Source: Planctomycetota bacterium (GTDB lineage: Bacteria; Planctomycetota; Phycisphaerae; Phycisphaerales; SM1A02). From it: 64,000 nucleotides of DNA. The first letter of the stretch is position 1, and each line of letters starts with the position of its first letter. The notes below the pieces were generated by a model that made no database searches, was not told where the DNA came from, and saw only the letters and a program-made list of their open reading frames with translations. The position numbers were made by a program, and so were the translations under genes. Shown piece by piece: positions 3,979 through 63,099 of the stretch. The stretch lies in assembly GCA_022574595.1 (NCBI GenBank), contig JACZRS010000010.1:62001-126000 (forward strand), written 5' to 3'.

Positions 3979-5343
3979 ATGATTGAACTGATGCAAGAGC
4001 AAGATACCTATAGCGCCGTGTTTGCAAGGATGGAAACTGAGACGCTGGATGGCGGGCCGGAGGCGCTTTTATCGTTGCGCAAAGATGCTATGCAGCATTT
4101 TGAGGAACTTGGCTTTCCAACCACCAAGGATGAACAGTGGCTTTATACCAATGTTTCGGCGATCGCTAAAACGACATTTTGCCCCGCAACTAGGCCCGAT
4201 GTCGCTGTTGATGCTGCAACTTTAGAGCGTGAAAGCTTTGCCGGCTGCGGTTTTCATCGACTGGTCTTTGTTAACGGTTTCTTTGCTAGCGAATTATCTG
4301 ATACTACGGAATTAGATGACAAAGTCACAGTAATAAGTTTGACAGATGCGCTGAAACAGCAGCCTGATACTGTGATGGCTCATTTAGCCCAATATGCAGA
4401 CTACAAAACCCACGCATTCGCTGCACTTAATACTGCGTTCATGGAAGACGGTGCGTTTATCCATGTGCCAAAGGGTGTAGTAGTAGATAAGCCGATTCAA
4501 TTGCTGTTTATTACAGTGCCCAATAATGAAACAAGTAATGAGCCAATTGTTGTTCATCCGCGCGTGCTGATAATTACGGGAGAATCAAGCCAGGTCACGG
4601 TCCTTGAAAGTTACGTTGGCTTAGGTGAGCAGGTTTACTTCACCAATGCCGTAACTGAAATTGCCTTAGGTGAAAACGCAGTAATCGATCACTACAAAGT
4701 GCAGCGAGAATCTACAAAAGCGTATCACATAGCAACGATGCAGCTTAATCAACAAAGAGCAAGCAACGGTGCATCGCATGTTACTTCACTAGGTGGCGAT
4801 ATCGTCCGCAACAACATTAATGTTGTTCTTGATGGTGAAGGATGCAATTGCAATCTTAGCGGACTATATATTCCCCGGGGTAAGCAGCACGTTGATAACC
4901 ATCTGCTTGTAGATCACGCAAAGGCGCATTGCGATAGCCGCGAGTTTTTCAAGGGCATACTTGATGATGATGCTCACGCGGTATTTACGGGCAAAATAAT
5001 CGTTCGCAAAGATGCACAAAAAACCGATGGCAAACAAACCAACAGAAACCTGCTGCTATCAGATAGCGCAAGGGTTGACACCAATCCGCAGCTGGAAATC
5101 TTTGCCAATGATGTGAAATGCACTCACGGAGCTACCATAGGCCAGCTTGATGATGATGCACTTTTTTATCTAAAAACCAGAGGTATCGAAACCGAGGCTG
5201 CAAGGAGCCTTCTTATCTATGCATTTGCAAGCGAAATTCTTGATGAAATTAAAATCGAAGCGGTTCGTGAACAGGTTAACAACATTCTTCTGGATAGATT
5301 GCCCCAAGGGGACCGGTTCCGGGGCTTTAAAGGTCTGCAATGA
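3979..5343 (+). CDS. sufD: SufD, Fe-S assembly scaffold subunit
   Basis: SufD, the SufB-related partner in the SufBC2D complex, about 454 residues. The N-terminal helical part (SLRKDAMQHFEELGFPTTKD, then EQWLYTNV) is typical, followed by the beta-helix with AFIHVPKGVVVDKPIQLLF and the C-terminal block CTHGATIGQLDDDALFYLKT with RGIETEAARSLL. The start is ATG 3979; the frame is also open from TTG 3964, but GGAAA is better placed for the ATG. Its stop overlaps the sufS start (ATGA). Confidence 0.95.
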   Translation: MIELMQEQDTYSAVFARMETETLDGGPEALLSLRKDAMQHFEELGFPTTKDEQWLYTNVSAIAKTTFCPATRPDVAVDAATLERESFAGCGFHRLVFVNGFFASELSDTTELDDKVTVISLTDALKQQPDTVMAHLAQYADYKTHAFAALNTAFMEDGAFIHVPKGVVVDKPIQLLFITVPNNETSNEPIVVHPRVLIITGESSQVTVLESYVGLGEQVYFTNAVTEIALGENAVIDHYKVQRESTKAYHIATMQLNQQRASNGASHVTSLGGDIVRNNINVVLDGEGCNCNLSGLYIPRGKQHVDNHLLVDHAKAHCDSREFFKGILDDDAHAVFTGKIIVRKDAQKTDGKQTNRNLLLSDSARVDTNPQLEIFANDVKCTHGATIGQLDDDALFYLKTRGIETEAARSLLIYAFASEILDEIKIEAVREQVNNILLDRLPQGDRFRGFKGLQ

Positions 5344-41012: not shown

Positions 41013-41753
41013 ATGCAGGTGCTAATTCTCGGTGTTGGTGACGCCTTTACCAAACGGCATTTCAATACCAGCGCACTAATTGAGCATGGCGAGCGGTATT
41101 TACTCCTTGATTGCCCTACACCTATTAACCGTGTACTTCATGATGTAACTTCAATTAATGACTGGACAGTCGGGCTTGAATCAATTGATGACATTATCAT
41201 TACACATTTGCACGGCGATCATTGCAGCGGGCTTGAGGCATTTGGATTTTGGCGTTACTTCTATTCTAAGAGTAACAATAAATCTTCATTACCTTGCATA
41301 CACACAAGTAAGTTAGCAGCTGATCGACTTTGGGAGCGATTTGCGCCTGCGATGGATCGTGCCAATTCCGATAGTCCAGCTACTCTAAGTGATTATTATG
41401 ATCTAAAGATACTAACGCCTGGTGCAGAATCTCAAGTATGTGGTTTAAGTATTAAATGTCGTTTCACCGGTCACCCGATTCCGACTGTTGGTTTACTAAT
41501 TAGCGATGGCTCGGCAACTCTGGGGTGGTCTAGCGACACCCCTTACGATGAAGAACATATAAAGTGGCTTAGCGCAGCGGATGTAATTGTGCATGAATCG
41601 GGTCCAGCTCCATCTCATACACCGATCGAGGATCTAAATGCGCTTCCCGATGAACTGCGCGCAAAGATGAGATTGATCCACCTGGCGGACGACTTTGATT
41701 ATTCATCCACGGATATTAAGCCTTTGCAAGAAGGTGAAGTGATCGAATTTTGA
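41013..41753 (+). CDS. MBL-fold metallohydrolase (RNase Z-like superfamily)
   Basis: The 246-residue protein starts at ATG 41013 after AAGGA. It has the metallo-beta-lactamase-fold zinc motif THLHGDH (His65, His67, Asp69, His70), the early strand LILGVGDAFTKRHFNTSALI, a GHPIPTVGLLISDG segment, WSSDTPYDE with a metal-ligand aspartate, and VIVHESG. The organisation resembles RNase Z-like and related hydrolases rather than beta-lactamases. It lacks a signal peptide and should act in the cytoplasm. The substrate is unknown; RNA or phosphodiester processing is possible. Confidence 0.8.
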   Translation: MQVLILGVGDAFTKRHFNTSALIEHGERYLLLDCPTPINRVLHDVTSINDWTVGLESIDDIIITHLHGDHCSGLEAFGFWRYFYSKSNNKSSLPCIHTSKLAADRLWERFAPAMDRANSDSPATLSDYYDLKILTPGAESQVCGLSIKCRFTGHPIPTVGLLISDGSATLGWSSDTPYDEEHIKWLSAADVIVHESGPAPSHTPIEDLNALPDELRAKMRLIHLADDFDYSSTDIKPLQEGEVIEF

Positions 41754-45622: not shown

Positions 45623-45722
45623 AGGTTTTTCTCGATGTTACGGTTAACTGCTGTACGTGAGTTTATGTCACGAAATTAGCCCCTAGCACTATACAAACTG
45701 ACGGCTATTATTGGGGCTACTA

Positions 45723-47720
45723 ATGGATGCCCTACCACTAAAACCCTTCCAAGAGATGACCAGTGAGGACTATGCCGAAATCGGCCTCATGTGTGGGCTT
45801 GAGGTGCATCAGCAACTGCTGACGGATACTAAGCTATTTTGTCGCTGCCCAGCAGGTCACTACAGCTCTGACTATGACGCTGAGGTGCTTCGGCATATGA
45901 GGCCGACGCTTTCAGAAATGGGCGAATATGATGGTACCGCTTTGATGGAAAAGAAGACGCGGAAGAATATCACCTACCGCATCCATCACGCGACAGTTTG
46001 CACCTATGAATTTGACGATACGCCCCCGTTTCTGATCAACGATCAAGCGGTTGATATAGCGCTGGAGCTATCGCATCTACTGCGACTTAATCTTGTTAAC
46101 GAACTGCATATAGCACGCAAGCAATACCTAGACGGCTCTATCCCGACAGGTTTTCAGCGAACCACCATCCTCGGAGTTGACGGCTGGATTCCCTTTAAGG
46201 AACGCCGTATAGATATTCGCCAACTAGGCCTGGAAGAGGATTCATGCCGCGAAGTATCAGATCACGGGCATGAGCGAACTTACTTAACTGACCGTTTGGG
46301 TATGCCTTTAATTGAAGTGGTTACCGAACCAAATATGTTTACACCTCAAGAGACCGCCGAAGTTTGTGATCTAATTCGCAAGATTTGTCGCAGCACTCAA
46401 AAAGTCAGGCGTGGTTATGGCGCAACGCGCCAAGATGTAAATGTCAGCGTTCGAGGTGGCACGCGCATTGAGATAAAAGGTGTGCCACAAATCTGGCGTA
46501 TCCCACATTTAATATATAACGAAGCTAGTCGTCAAGTTGCGCTTTTGCGTATTAAGGATGTGTTAAACGCTAGAGGAATAACACATGAATCAATTAATAC
46601 TCCTGCTATGGATGTGACATCAATAGTTGCCAAGACAACTTGGGCACCGATCAAAACAGCTTTGGACTTAGGATTGAAGGTTCGATGTGTGTTGTTGTCA
46701 GGCTTTGCAGGGATTCTTAATACCACTACACAGGAACACACTACCTTCGCCAAGGAATTTTCTGACCGCGTTCGTGTGATTGCTTGCTTATCGCAATTAC
46801 CCAATATTGTGCACAGTGATGCTGCAGCCGAATCGCTTTGGCCGCAGGATTGGCTTAAGATTCGCAAGCGTATGAAGGCAACAGAAAACGATGCACTGAT
46901 ACTGGTTTGGGGTAATGATCAGGACCTTGATACAGCTTGCGAGGAGATTTTAATTCGCGCAAGAGAAGCAACCGTGGGCGTGCCAAGCGATACTCGTCAA
47001 CCACTAAAGGATGGCACAAACGGTTTTGAACGAGTTCTTCCGGGTGCGGATCGCATGTATCCTGACACTGATTTGCCTCCGATTGAAATTACCGCTGATC
47101 GTGTTGCAAGAACAAAAGCATTGATGCCGGAGTTTGTTTGGGAAACTGAAGCTCGCTTTAGAGAATGGGGAAATGGGGGAGGGATGGCTGAGGAGGATGT
47201 GCAGCGATTATGTATTTCACCTCGAGCAATTTTTATTACTCGCTGCATGATTGATTTAAAACTAAGCGGAAAACTATTGGGCACAATTTGTGGGCAGTGG
47301 ATGAGAGCGTTATCACGCAAGAATCTTGATACACGGCGCTTTACTGATGAGGCGCTGCTTGAAATATTTAGTGCATATATAGCAAAGCGGATGGCTCGTG
47401 AAGGAATACCTTGGCTAATTGAACGAATGCTAAGAATCCACGAGCCTGAGCATATTAAAGCCAGTGATGTTGCTTTATTACTTGATGAAATAGACATGAA
47501 GCCGGCAACTGATGAGCAATTAAGCGCACATCTTGATCGCGTTCTTTATCAGGTGCAGGAAGAGAACTTCCCAACCGCAGAAAAACGTGTTCGCTACATG
47601 ATGGGTGAACTGATGGAAGACCTTGTCGGGCGTGTAGATGGAATGCTATTATTAAAACTTGTTAATGATAGAGTCAGCCAATCAAAATCAGCTCCATCGC
47701 AGGAGCCAATGGAAACATGA
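45723..47720 (+). CDS. gatE: Archaeal-type glutamyl-tRNA(Gln) amidotransferase subunit E
   Basis: The 665-residue protein starts at ATG 45723; an in-frame TTG at 45711 is less likely. It aligns in order with archaeal GatE rather than GatB: IGLMCGLEVHQQLLTDTKLF with CRCP, RPTLSEMGEYD, FLINDQAVDIALELSHLL, RKQYLDGSIPTGFQRT, LEEDSCREV, DRLGMPLIEVVTEP and RQDVNVSVRGGTRIEIKGVP. The GAD insertion related to AspRS (about 285-420) has the VGVPSDTRQPLKDGTNGFER and RMYPDTDLPP segments, and the C-terminal tail domain follows. GatE is the kinase-like subunit that activates Glu-tRNA(Gln) for amidation. It is coupled to gatD by an ATGA overlap. Confidence 0.93.
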   Translation: MDALPLKPFQEMTSEDYAEIGLMCGLEVHQQLLTDTKLFCRCPAGHYSSDYDAEVLRHMRPTLSEMGEYDGTALMEKKTRKNITYRIHHATVCTYEFDDTPPFLINDQAVDIALELSHLLRLNLVNELHIARKQYLDGSIPTGFQRTTILGVDGWIPFKERRIDIRQLGLEEDSCREVSDHGHERTYLTDRLGMPLIEVVTEPNMFTPQETAEVCDLIRKICRSTQKVRRGYGATRQDVNVSVRGGTRIEIKGVPQIWRIPHLIYNEASRQVALLRIKDVLNARGITHESINTPAMDVTSIVAKTTWAPIKTALDLGLKVRCVLLSGFAGILNTTTQEHTTFAKEFSDRVRVIACLSQLPNIVHSDAAAESLWPQDWLKIRKRMKATENDALILVWGNDQDLDTACEEILIRAREATVGVPSDTRQPLKDGTNGFERVLPGADRMYPDTDLPPIEITADRVARTKALMPEFVWETEARFREWGNGGGMAEEDVQRLCISPRAIFITRCMIDLKLSGKLLGTICGQWMRALSRKNLDTRRFTDEALLEIFSAYIAKRMAREGIPWLIERMLRIHEPEHIKASDVALLLDEIDMKPATDEQLSAHLDRVLYQVQEENFPTAEKRVRYMMGELMEDLVGRVDGMLLLKLVNDRVSQSKSAPSQEPMET

Positions 47721-49114
47721 GTAATAACGCTGCAGAAAAAACTAACAATGGTTATCGTGGCCCCGGCTTGGCAGTTCTCGATAAGCATGGTGTTGGAGTG
47801 TGGAGTGATGTTGAGGTCAAGACCACAGGCGGGAAGTTCCGAGGTATTATTCTGCCGCGTTCAGAAACTTCTGATGATAAACATATCGTTTTGAAAATCT
47901 GTAGCGGATACAACATTGGTCTTGCAGCTGAAACCATAGAGCTAATGACCGAACATGGCAGCCGCAAAGCTAATTACCAGATAGCCGAACAGGAATTTCC
48001 AATAGAGCCGGGTAAGCCTAACGTCGTGCTGTTTGGGACAGGCGGAACTATTGCCAGCCGTTTGGATTACCGTAGTGGCGCAGTCATTCCTGCGTTCAGC
48101 CCGGGTGAGTTATATGGCTCGGTTCCGGAACTAGCTGATTATTGTAATTTGCGTACTGAAGAATTGTTTAGTGTATTTAGCGAAAATATGGGGCCTGAAC
48201 AATATGTCGAGTTAGCCAAGAATATTGCTCAAGCAATAGAATATGGTGCAGATGGAATTGTTGTTGGACACGGCACAGACACAATGCATCATACCGCTGC
48301 GATTCTCACCTTCATGGTGCAGAATCCACCAGTGCCAATCGTATTGGTCGGATCACAACGCTCCAGCGACCGCCCTAGTTCGGATGCTGCACTGAACCTT
48401 ATATGTGCCATAAAAACCGCAGCTGAAAGTGATATCGCGGAAGTCGTCGTATGCATGTTCGGCCCAACATCGGATCAATACTGTTTGATTCATAGGGGTA
48501 CGCGCGTTCGCAAAATGCATTCGAGTTACCGATCAACTTTCCGCACGCTTGGTGATGTTCCGCTGGCGATGATTGATCCAAAATCTATTACGATGTTTCG
48601 TGAGGAATATCGTAAGCGCGACCCTAAGCGCCAGATGATCATTAACACTAATTATTCTGATGAAGTGACATTGCTTTATTATTATCCGGGCATGAAACCG
48701 GACGTTTTAGAAGCGATGATCGAAACGGGGTATCGCGGAATTGTTATAGCTGGCACAGGGCTTGGGCATGTAAATAAACCAACTTATCGAGCACTTAAGC
48801 TGGCGCAAGAGCGCGGTGTGCATGTATATATGACAGTGCAAACGCTTTGGGGGTTTGCGGGAATGTATGTATATGAAACCGGCCGCGAGATGATGAAGCT
48901 TGGCGTGGTTCCGCTTGCTAATATGCTGCCGGAGGTTGCGTTTATGAAGTTGTCATGGGCGCTTGGTCAATCAGATGATCTCGAAGAAGTGAAGAGCATT
49001 ATGCTGAAAACTATTGGCGATGAAATAACACTGCGCGAGCCATATAACGGCTATTTGCTGTATCAAGGTGCGGTGCCGGAAGTTCAGGAATTTCTAAAGA
49101 GTATTAAGCGGTAA
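47717..49114 (+). CDS. gatD: Archaeal-type glutamyl-tRNA(Gln) amidotransferase subunit D
   Basis: The 465-residue protein has a small beta-barrel N-terminal domain (about 15-85; GVWSDVEVKTTGGKFRGIIL) and then an L-asparaginase-like amidase domain. Active-site residues known from archaeal GatD are present: Thr111 in GTGGTIAS, Thr187-Asp188 in GHGTDTMHHTA and Lys266 in RVRKMHSS. DYRSGAVIPAFSPGEL follows the first motif, as in GatD. Plain asparaginases lack the N-terminal domain, and the gatE partner settles the assignment. GatD supplies ammonia from glutamine for Gln-tRNA(Gln) formation. Start ATG 47717 overlaps the gatE stop. Confidence 0.93.
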   Translation: MSNNAAEKTNNGYRGPGLAVLDKHGVGVWSDVEVKTTGGKFRGIILPRSETSDDKHIVLKICSGYNIGLAAETIELMTEHGSRKANYQIAEQEFPIEPGKPNVVLFGTGGTIASRLDYRSGAVIPAFSPGELYGSVPELADYCNLRTEELFSVFSENMGPEQYVELAKNIAQAIEYGADGIVVGHGTDTMHHTAAILTFMVQNPPVPIVLVGSQRSSDRPSSDAALNLICAIKTAAESDIAEVVVCMFGPTSDQYCLIHRGTRVRKMHSSYRSTFRTLGDVPLAMIDPKSITMFREEYRKRDPKRQMIINTNYSDEVTLLYYYPGMKPDVLEAMIETGYRGIVIAGTGLGHVNKPTYRALKLAQERGVHVYMTVQTLWGFAGMYVYETGREMMKLGVVPLANMLPEVAFMKLSWALGQSDDLEEVKSIMLKTIGDEITLREPYNGYLLYQGAVPEVQEFLKSIKR

Positions 49115-61911: not shown

Positions 61912-63099
61912 ATGAATCTTAAAAACAAACTTGTTAGTGTTCTGAGATTGAGGCGCAGGGGTATGCGATCATTTACCCTAGTCGAAGCAGTTATATCAAC
62001 TGTAATCGTAGGGATTATGTTTGTTGCTGCAATGAGCGTTCTAGGCGCTACTGCTGTTTCAAAACGAAGTACGCAGCAGCAGGCACTTGGGTATTCCTTA
62101 GCTCAAGATTTAATGAACGAGATTCTGATTCAACCTTATGAAGACCCAACACAAACAGCAGTATTCGGTCGAGAATCAGGCGAAGGTGGAGTCAATCGCA
62201 TAGATTTTGATGATGTCGATGACTATGAAAGTTGGTCAGCTACTCCGCCAGAAGATAAGAATGGTACTTCACTTACAGGATACGATCAATGGACGCGATC
62301 TGTTGATATCAGCTTTGTAAAACCCACCGATCTACAAACCGAATTACTCTCACGAACAGGCGTAAAACGTATTGCGGTTACAGTATCACGTGATGGCATA
62401 GTAGCAACGCAGCTCATTGCCATCCGCACTCACGCATGGCCAATGAATCGCAAGGACCCTGGGATTGTCGTCCTGTTTGTCGTAGATGATACTGCAAGTC
62501 TGACAAGCCAAGAGAAAGCTAAGCAATTACTCATGAAATCATGGGGATTCACGGTAATGCTTATGGGAGCAACAGAATCACAAGCTAATCTTGATGCAGC
62601 AACTGTTGATGCCAATGTAGCCTACATTTCACAAGATATTAATGATTCGGATTTAGATACAAAATTGCTCTACACATTAATAGGCGTAGTTAATGAGGAA
62701 GCGAACCTTGGGTCTGAGTTTGGCTTTGCCGATTCTTGGACCGATGGAAACTCAAACAATATCCAGATAGTGGATAATTCACATTACGTCACAAATGAGC
62801 TGAGTCATGGTACTCTCCAAATTCTCAACTCATCTCAGCCCGGTCACATGCTATCTTGGCCTTACGCTCCGGGCTTACAAACCCTAGGTCGAAGTTGGGA
62901 TGAAAGTGATAAATTATACCGCCGCTCCCTAGCAGTGATTGAGGTTGGCAGTGAGTTATATGGTGGAGAGTTTGCAACAGGCAGGCGCGTAAGATTGCCC
63001 TGGGGACTTCCAGGTTTTGATGTCGGCGAACTTAACAAGAATGGTTTAGACATAATGAGGCGGACTATCGAATGGGCAGCTAGTAAGGAGCAGCCATGA
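61912..63099 (+). CDS. Prepilin fused to an extracellular Rossmann-like domain
   Basis: The 395-residue protein has an N-terminal prepilin motif S|FTLVEAVISTVIVGIMFVA (Ser at -1, Glu at +5). A pilin-like region (to about 170) resembles PilV/GspI. It is followed by a domain starting GIVVLFVVDDTASLTSQEKA, with alternating strands and helices and ending in RVRLPWGLPGFDVGELNKNG, LDIMRRTIEWAA. This resembles a Rossmann/ThuA-like domain found in secreted adhesin-like proteins. It overlaps the next gene by 4 bases. The extra domain could display binding activity at a fibre tip. Confidence 0.75.
   Translation: MNLKNKLVSVLRLRRRGMRSFTLVEAVISTVIVGIMFVAAMSVLGATAVSKRSTQQQALGYSLAQDLMNEILIQPYEDPTQTAVFGRESGEGGVNRIDFDDVDDYESWSATPPEDKNGTSLTGYDQWTRSVDISFVKPTDLQTELLSRTGVKRIAVTVSRDGIVATQLIAIRTHAWPMNRKDPGIVVLFVVDDTASLTSQEKAKQLLMKSWGFTVMLMGATESQANLDAATVDANVAYISQDINDSDLDTKLLYTLIGVVNEEANLGSEFGFADSWTDGNSNNIQIVDNSHYVTNELSHGTLQILNSSQPGHMLSWPYAPGLQTLGRSWDESDKLYRRSLAVIEVGSELYGGEFATGRRVRLPWGLPGFDVGELNKNGLDIMRRTIEWAASKEQP

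Follow-up and report, generated by a model that had tools for sequence, protein, structure and literature searches.

We analysed a window of 64,000 nucleotides from a Planctomycetota bacterium (order Phycisphaerales, family SM1A02; positions 62,001 to 126,000 of contig JACZRS010000010.1, assembly GCA_022574595.1), in which two adjacent plus-strand genes, gatE and gatD, encode the two subunits of an archaeal-type glutamyl-tRNA(Gln) amidotransferase, GatDE. The gatE gene (45723-47720; subunit E) specifies 665 amino acids from an ATG; its longest frame opens at a TTG at 45711, and a GGGG seen by eye at 45714-45717 is a possible ribosome-binding sequence. Within GatE the GatB/GatE catalytic domain (PF02934) covers 45789-47102 (residues 27-464 of the frame from 45711; 172.2 bits, cut-off 23.4), a GAD-like insertion (PF02938) lies at 46653-46937 (residues 315-409; 20.4 bits, cut-off 23.4), the segment VPSDTRQPLKDGTN at 46980-47021 (residues 424-437), and a GatB_Yqey-like tail (PF02637) at 47283-47672 (residues 525-654; 23.1 bits, cut-off 27). 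The gatE stop and the gatD start overlap in an ATGA (47717-47720), through which the two genes are likely to be translationally coupled. The gatD gene (47717-49114), for the glutaminase subunit, specifies 465 amino acids with an N-terminal barrel (GatD_N, PF18195; 47804-47941, residues 30-75; 50.7 bits, cut-off 25.7) and the catalytic residues Thr111 (codon 48047-48049), Thr187-Asp188 (48275-48280) and Lys266 (48512-48514). A first-pass annotation, made from the letters alone, had described both subunits as present, complete and coupled, and the intact frames and the overlap bear this out. The guanine plus cytosine content of gatE (0.464) and gatD (0.466) equals that of the host window (0.460).

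Profile scores assign both proteins to the archaeal families. GatE scored 513.9 bits against the NCBIfam equivalog model NF003107 (cut-off 456) and 426.4 bits against the equivalog TIGR00134 (cut-off 319.55), and the GatB models score it far lower (best 151.3 bits, under the cut-off of 338). GatD scored 500.4 bits against NF003217 (cut-off 310) and 497.8 bits against TIGR02153 (cut-off 324), far above the asparaginase II models; it also passed a broader type I asparaginase subfamily model (383.9, cut-off 260.5), which is expected because of its asparaginase-type catalytic part. In the alignments, Thr111 of GatD is invariant in all 25 planctomycete rows that cover the position, and Thr187, Asp188 and Lys266 in all 26, with the two archaeal rows agreeing throughout. 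The barrel and the active-site set named in the first-pass annotation are both present. In GatE, P425, T428 and R429 of the VPSDTRQ motif are invariant (31/31 planctomycete and 3/3 archaeal rows), and the position of R429 is lysine in 10/10 GatB rows. The GatE-specific residues D141, S143, R150, G257, R429, M449, Y450 and T453 are kept in the same planctomycete and archaeal rows and are replaced by other residues in every one of the ten GatB rows. Residues E31 and H33 (30 of the 30 planctomycete rows covering them) and E175 and E176 (31 of 31), which we take from GatB structures to be metal- and ATP-binding catalytic residues, are shared with all three archaeal and all ten GatB rows. Of the two features claimed earlier for GatE, the segment keeps its invariant positions; the region of the GAD insertion aligns with archaeal GatE and scores below the threshold of its model. 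The predicted structure of GatE (predicted local distance difference test 81.7, predicted template modelling score 0.80) has chain 1zq1_C as its best fold match (E = 3.3e-43), with 2d6f next and both ahead of any GatB. Sequence matches in the Protein Data Bank (PDB) were likewise best to 1zq1_C, then 2d6f, for GatE and to 1zq1_A and 2d6f_A for GatD; 2d6f is a Glu-tRNA(Gln) amidotransferase with tRNA(Gln), presumably from Methanothermobacter.

The GatE phylogeny was built from 44 rows, comprising 31 planctomycete GatE, 3 archaeal GatE and 10 planctomycete GatB sequences, with the fragments L105 and L117 omitted; it was repeated with 27 planctomycete rows after removal of one long row and three near-duplicates (L093, L106, L107 and L115). 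GatE lies outside GatB, not within it, on a branch with 100/100 support that holds in the repeat, in keeping with the archaeal-type pair that had been claimed for this bacterium. The three archaeal rows form their own clade (100/98), and the planctomycete rows fall on one side of a branch supported at 79/95, or 92/95 in the repeat. Branch lengths within planctomycete GatE match those between the three archaeal rows, so the family is old in Planctomycetota. In the GatD tree, the 26 planctomycete rows are separated at 99/100 from one asparaginase and two archaeal rows. These archaeal rows fail to form a group (81/16), and the very long branch of the single outgroup leaves the root unsure. The two trees share most of their tip groups (the window's group; G169 with G124; G044 with G027, G052 and G072; G146 with G039 and G108; G053 with G073), indicating that the subunits mostly travel together. 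For a heterodimer with an ammonia channel, as GatDE would form, the genetic signs observed are the ATGA overlap and these mostly matching trees. In both trees genome G108 pairs with G039 (100/98) and not with the other members of its family, G027, G052 and G072, a pattern suggestive of exchange inside the phylum.

Identity to the archaeal proteins is 29-32% for GatE (three sequences) and 44-47% for GatD over nearly full-length alignments. The deep clades and the host base composition show that GatDE is old in Planctomycetota and is neither contamination nor a recent arrival. The first-pass annotation suggested an ancient transfer; the age in the phylum is supported, whereas the three archaeal GatE sequences sampled, of which one was assembled from a frameshifted copy, do not establish a transfer from Archaea, its direction or its donor. 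A search for further archaeal GatE gave one frameshifted plasmid copy only, and among viral contigs none of eight GatE pattern matches was a relative. An unannotated gatE copy, in two frames, lies on a haloarchaeal megaplasmid (L118; CP031304.1, Natrinema plasmid).

GatE was found at an E-value of 1e-50 or better in 22 of 294 sampled Planctomycetota genomes (20 of the 22 over the cut-off) and in 10 of the 155 genomes with a completeness of 90% or more and a contamination of no more than 5%. Among the 22, the window genome is alone in its class, and GatE was absent from the one other sampled member of its family and from the 13 sampled members of its order. Scanning genome contigs with the window GatE, an approach that detects close relatives only and says nothing on other phyla, returned 12 loci at 38-73% identity, all of them titled Planctomycetota or Phycisphaerae. 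At least one genome enters both counts, since L117 shares an exact 200-base stretch with a contig of G091, a member of the window's phylum, which also marks the window as planctomycete. Ratios of nonsynonymous to synonymous substitution rates (dN/dS, by the Nei-Gojobori method) among the window's nearest relatives, L106-L108, were 0.10-0.13 for GatE and 0.08-0.09 for GatD; GatE gave 0.08 for L114/L115, and the G053/G073 pair gave 0.24 for GatE and 0.20 for GatD. The comparison of the window with L107 is saturated at synonymous sites. GatDE is a patchy, old family under purifying selection in Planctomycetota.

The neighbourhood of the pair in some relatives points to glutamine. In G072 a glutaminyl-tRNA synthetase (GlnRS) with a GatB_Yqey domain, both domains held in one 888-amino-acid frame, lies directly upstream of gatE-gatD, and the match coordinates for GlnRS, YqeY and GatE give the same glnS(YqeY)-gatE-gatD row in G052 and G027. 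A glutamine synthetase gene immediately adjoins gatE or gatD, on the strand of gatE, in G029, G033 and G062 (in G062 gatD itself is on the opposite strand; in L117 a glutamine synthetase lies farther away and was not counted). Such neighbours, found in 6 of 20 relatives' loci, link the pair to glutamine, and the rest of the 20 chosen neighbour genes that were scanned have no common theme, one in G044 being an Asparaginase_2 protein. In the window itself the pair is surrounded by genes for MltA, an amidohydrolase, an M28 peptidase and RNase PH, of which the first three also flank the pair in three named metagenome-assembled genomes.

The window genome encodes other routes to the same aminoacyl-tRNAs, and of the components to be looked for according to the first-pass annotation, GatCAB and GlnRS are present, as is a glutamyl-tRNA synthetase (GluRS). 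GlnRS (724 bits, cut-off 425.8; E = 8.5e-218) is a 566-residue frame that adjoins GluRS on contig 31, a contig other than that of gatE-gatD. GatCAB is complete: contig 18 carries GatA and GatC together, and contig 23 carries GatB; asparaginyl-tRNA synthetase (AsnRS) scored 666 bits (cut-off 342.6), a GluQ-RS-sized protein lies on contig 4, and one AspRS-sized and one LysRS-sized enzyme were named by eye. GlnRS, AsnRS and GatCAB occur together in 68 of 547 bacterial genera in one survey (PMC4206432), and the addition of GatDE to this set is new. The GluRS of the window genome (L028) has about 50 extra residues (289-338 of the frame) that are missing from the five solved GluRS chains shown. Its residue 358, presumably in Thermus numbering, was dropped as a sign of tRNA discrimination: it is arginine, but it is likewise arginine in PDB chain 2ja2, which we take to be the GluRS of Mycobacterium tuberculosis, a species assumed to lack GlnRS. 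The GatB proteins of the window genome (L139) and of G052 (L140), genomes that both have GlnRS and GatDE, sit on long branches in the GatE tree (1.33 and 1.32), and the GatB match of G108 (L138) has one internal TAG, as if GatB were under weaker constraint in these three. No tRNA-Asn was present among the ARAGORN tRNA genes in the 45 window-genome loci scanned (L031-L075), despite the AsnRS; an assembly gap or an interrupted gene is possible.

Among the 22 GatE-bearing genomes, 11 have GlnRS and 12 have GatB over the cut-off. When the 11 named relatives are included, AsnRS is over the cut-off in 28 of 33 genomes, GlnRS-less G012, G062, G099 and G029 among them. Every one of the named relatives, the L106-L108 genomes included, has two strong GluRS/GlnRS-type proteins, of which, judging by size and score, one in each genome would be GlnRS. 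Three genomes in which no GlnRS was found, G012, G062 and G099 (97, 96 and 94% complete), carry a compact GluRS-type frame of 436-454 residues as well as GatB, GatE and AsnRS; Gln-tRNA should therefore arise there through an amidotransferase, of which two are present. GatDE as the sole route to Gln-tRNA(Gln) was considered and not retained, despite six genomes (G014, G053, G073, G091, G124 and G249) in which neither GlnRS nor GatB was over the cut-off. G073 has a GatB-tail match (4984-5247) next to the end of its contig at base 5251, where a GatB gene is most likely truncated, and G053 and G091 belong to the same family. In G014, G053 and G073 the essential GluRS was missed as well, and G249 has only a 320-residue GluQ-RS-sized frame, so such genes are lacking from these assemblies. 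For G124 (88% complete) the family mate G169 has GlnRS.

Both tRNA-Gln genes of the window genome (anticodons CTG and TTG) are of the bacterial type, with U1-A72 and G73. The T1-A72 pair (U1-A72 in the tRNA) occurs in 41 of 41 tRNA-Gln genes from 21 of the 22 GatE-bearing genomes, found with a search model that was built from two U1-A72 genes and leans slightly that way; no tRNA-Gln gene was found in G053. Of 44 model matches without a locus, 21, the stronger ones but for one, were fetched, the other 23 scoring 50 bits or less. Archaeal GatDE is reported to contact the A1-U72 pair and the D-loop of tRNA-Gln, and position 73 to be A in Archaea and G in Bacteria (PMC9499178). In the 41 genes this position is G in 20, A in 19 and T in 2, and the discriminator base was rejected as a marker of GlnRS loss (12 G, 9 A and 2 T in GlnRS-bearing genomes; 10 A and 8 G in GlnRS-less ones). 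In G072 and G027, which have the glnS(YqeY)-gatE-gatD row, a tRNA-Gln(TTG) carries U73 (L178 and L179), described elsewhere as the eukaryotic discriminator (PMC9499178).

We consider it probable that the window encodes a genuine GatDE glutamyl-tRNA(Gln) amidotransferase, long established in parts of Planctomycetota, that serves cells with a GlnRS as a second or a repair route. The identity of the subunits, the retained active-site residues, the placement of the family, the purifying selection among near relatives, the genomic context and the tRNA types were shown here; as to activity, tRNA recognition and cellular role, the sequences point most likely to a functional Glu-tRNA(Gln) amidotransferase that has adapted to the bacterial tRNA-Gln. 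Asparaginase-type GatD would hydrolyse glutamine and pass the ammonia to GatE, which would hold tRNA(Gln) with its cradle and tail and use ATP to activate the gamma-carboxylate of Glu-tRNA(Gln) before amidating it to Gln-tRNA(Gln); in doing so GatE would have to read a bacterial U1-A72 tRNA(Gln). In GlnRS-less relatives GatDE would probably make Gln-tRNA(Gln) in parallel with GatCAB, and in GlnRS-bearing relatives and the window genome it would probably provide a second route and also turn stray Glu-tRNA(Gln) into Gln-tRNA(Gln).

The planctomycete pair resembles archaeal GatDE (1zq1, from Pyrococcus abyssi, and 2d6f) in both subunits, domain order, catalytic residues and GatE fold, but it differs in its bacterial host, in its separate group in the trees, in the U1-A72 tRNA-Gln that it meets in place of A1-U72 (PMC9499178), and in its coexistence with GlnRS in 11 of 22 genomes, that of the window included, whereas archaeal GatDE is described from cells without GlnRS. 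With bacterial GatCAB it shares a homologous kinase and amidotransferase subunit (GatB), the same reaction step and the same genome; unlike GatB, GatE has a GAD-like insertion and has as its partner an asparaginase-type GatD instead of GatA and GatC, and it lies outside GatB in the tree. The GlnRS with an appended YqeY that adjoins gatE-gatD in three relatives is like that of Deinococcus (PMC3927822), whereas the GlnRS of the window genome has no YqeY domain.

According to a 2022 review, GatDE is now found only in Archaea, and all known archaeal lineages are without GlnRS, an absence that is linked to co-evolution of GatDE with archaeal tRNA-Gln (PMC9499178). A 2014 survey of bacterial GlxRS lists GlnRS in 3 of 5 planctomycetes, and GatDE is unmentioned in the available part of its text (PMC3927822). 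We found no report of bacterial GatDE among the matches listed in the open-access literature, subscription papers and preprints being outside the search; proteins of this kind may already be named by public annotation pipelines based on these models. With regard to the concern in the first-pass annotation that such genes might already be known as widespread in this lineage, they do recur, but they are neither widespread nor, in the literature searched, already known. The occurrence of GatDE in bacteria, beside GlnRS and a bacterial tRNA-Gln, breaks two parts of the archaeal-only picture. It makes the co-evolution idea testable, by asking whether planctomycete GatDE reads U1-A72 and which residues changed, and it means that some genomes offer up to three routes to one aminoacyl-tRNA.

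Several observations weigh against the favoured reading. The window genome has GlnRS and GatCAB, so GatDE is not required there, and its GluRS may not form Glu-tRNA(Gln) at all. Given U1-A72 here and A1-U72 in Archaea, recognition of the tRNA must differ or must ignore this pair. The GAD and GatB_Yqey tail domains of GatE both fall below their Pfam cut-offs, and the genes adjoining the pair in the window have no link to glutamine. GatE evolves faster between G052 and G072 (dN/dS 0.30, with 0.13 for GatD). The subunits conflict in G029, which groups with G014, G053, G073 and others in the GatE tree (97/89, starred support) and with G146, G039 and G108 in the GatD tree (97/91, starred support).

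A more specific form of this reading, which we regard as possible and rather doubtful, is that planctomycete GatDE evolved for U1-A72 tRNA(Gln) and forms a charging-and-repair pair with GlnRS, the gene row in three relatives being the trace of a GlnRS-GatDE assembly. GlnRS would then make most of the Gln-tRNA(Gln), with GatDE converting mistaken Glu-tRNA(Gln), and such an assembly would be a bacterial counterpart of the archaeal GluRS-GatDE transamidosome.

It is unlikely that GatDE was repurposed for a different substrate, be it another tRNA, a peptide or a small molecule, or serves mainly as a regulated glutaminase. Its coexistence with GlnRS, which known archaeal lineages are said to lack (PMC9499178), and a first base pair in tRNA-Gln unlike the archaeal one would fit a changed function, but the GatE-specific and catalytic positions are unchanged, the neighbours in six relatives' loci are GlnRS or glutamine synthetase, and the pair is present in genomes without GlnRS. 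A vestigial passenger, acquired long ago, rendered redundant by GlnRS and GatCAB and now being lost, has little probability. The patchy presence of GatE, missing from most sampled genomes including the closest by family and order, and the occurrence of GlnRS in half of the GatE-bearing genomes are what such a passenger would show; yet in the nearest relatives, each with two GluRS/GlnRS-type enzymes, both genes have a dN/dS near 0.1, and every tested active-site residue is kept. In the window genome it is rather GatB that looks relaxed, its branch of 1.33 being about twice that of most GatB rows, with thin sampling nearby.

The division of labour proposed in the first-pass annotation, with GatDE for Gln-tRNA and GatCAB for Asn-tRNA, is improbable. 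A complete GatCAB does stand beside GatDE in one genome, as in the archaeal arrangement, but GlnRS and AsnRS are both encoded, so that neither amidotransferase route is forced, and AsnRS is over its cut-off in 28 of 33 GatE-bearing genomes, GlnRS-less relatives among them; GatCAB may still make asparagine on tRNA-Asn, by analogy with what has been proposed for Bdellovibrio (PMC4206432). A recent archaeal transfer or archaeal contamination of the assembly is scarcely credible, for although GatDE has been described as archaeal only (PMC9499178) and the contamination estimate of the genome is 3.12%, the base composition of both genes is that of the window, the surrounding gene order is the same in three named metagenome-assembled genomes, the 31 planctomycete GatE rows split from the archaeal ones, and identity to the three archaeal GatE proteins is low.

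Two further features were observed in the window and its genome. A protein of metallo-beta-lactamase fold encoded at 41013-41753 of the window scores over the Pfam model for the anti-Pycsar protein Apyc1 (54.6 bits, cut-off 50). On contig 27 of the window genome, between the genes for tRNA-Ser(GGA) and tRNA-Pro(GGG), lie three tandem units at a spacing of about 108 bases (L072; G000:C27:46700-46986), each containing a tRNA-Pro-like sequence of 71 bases in which the anticodon arm is altered.

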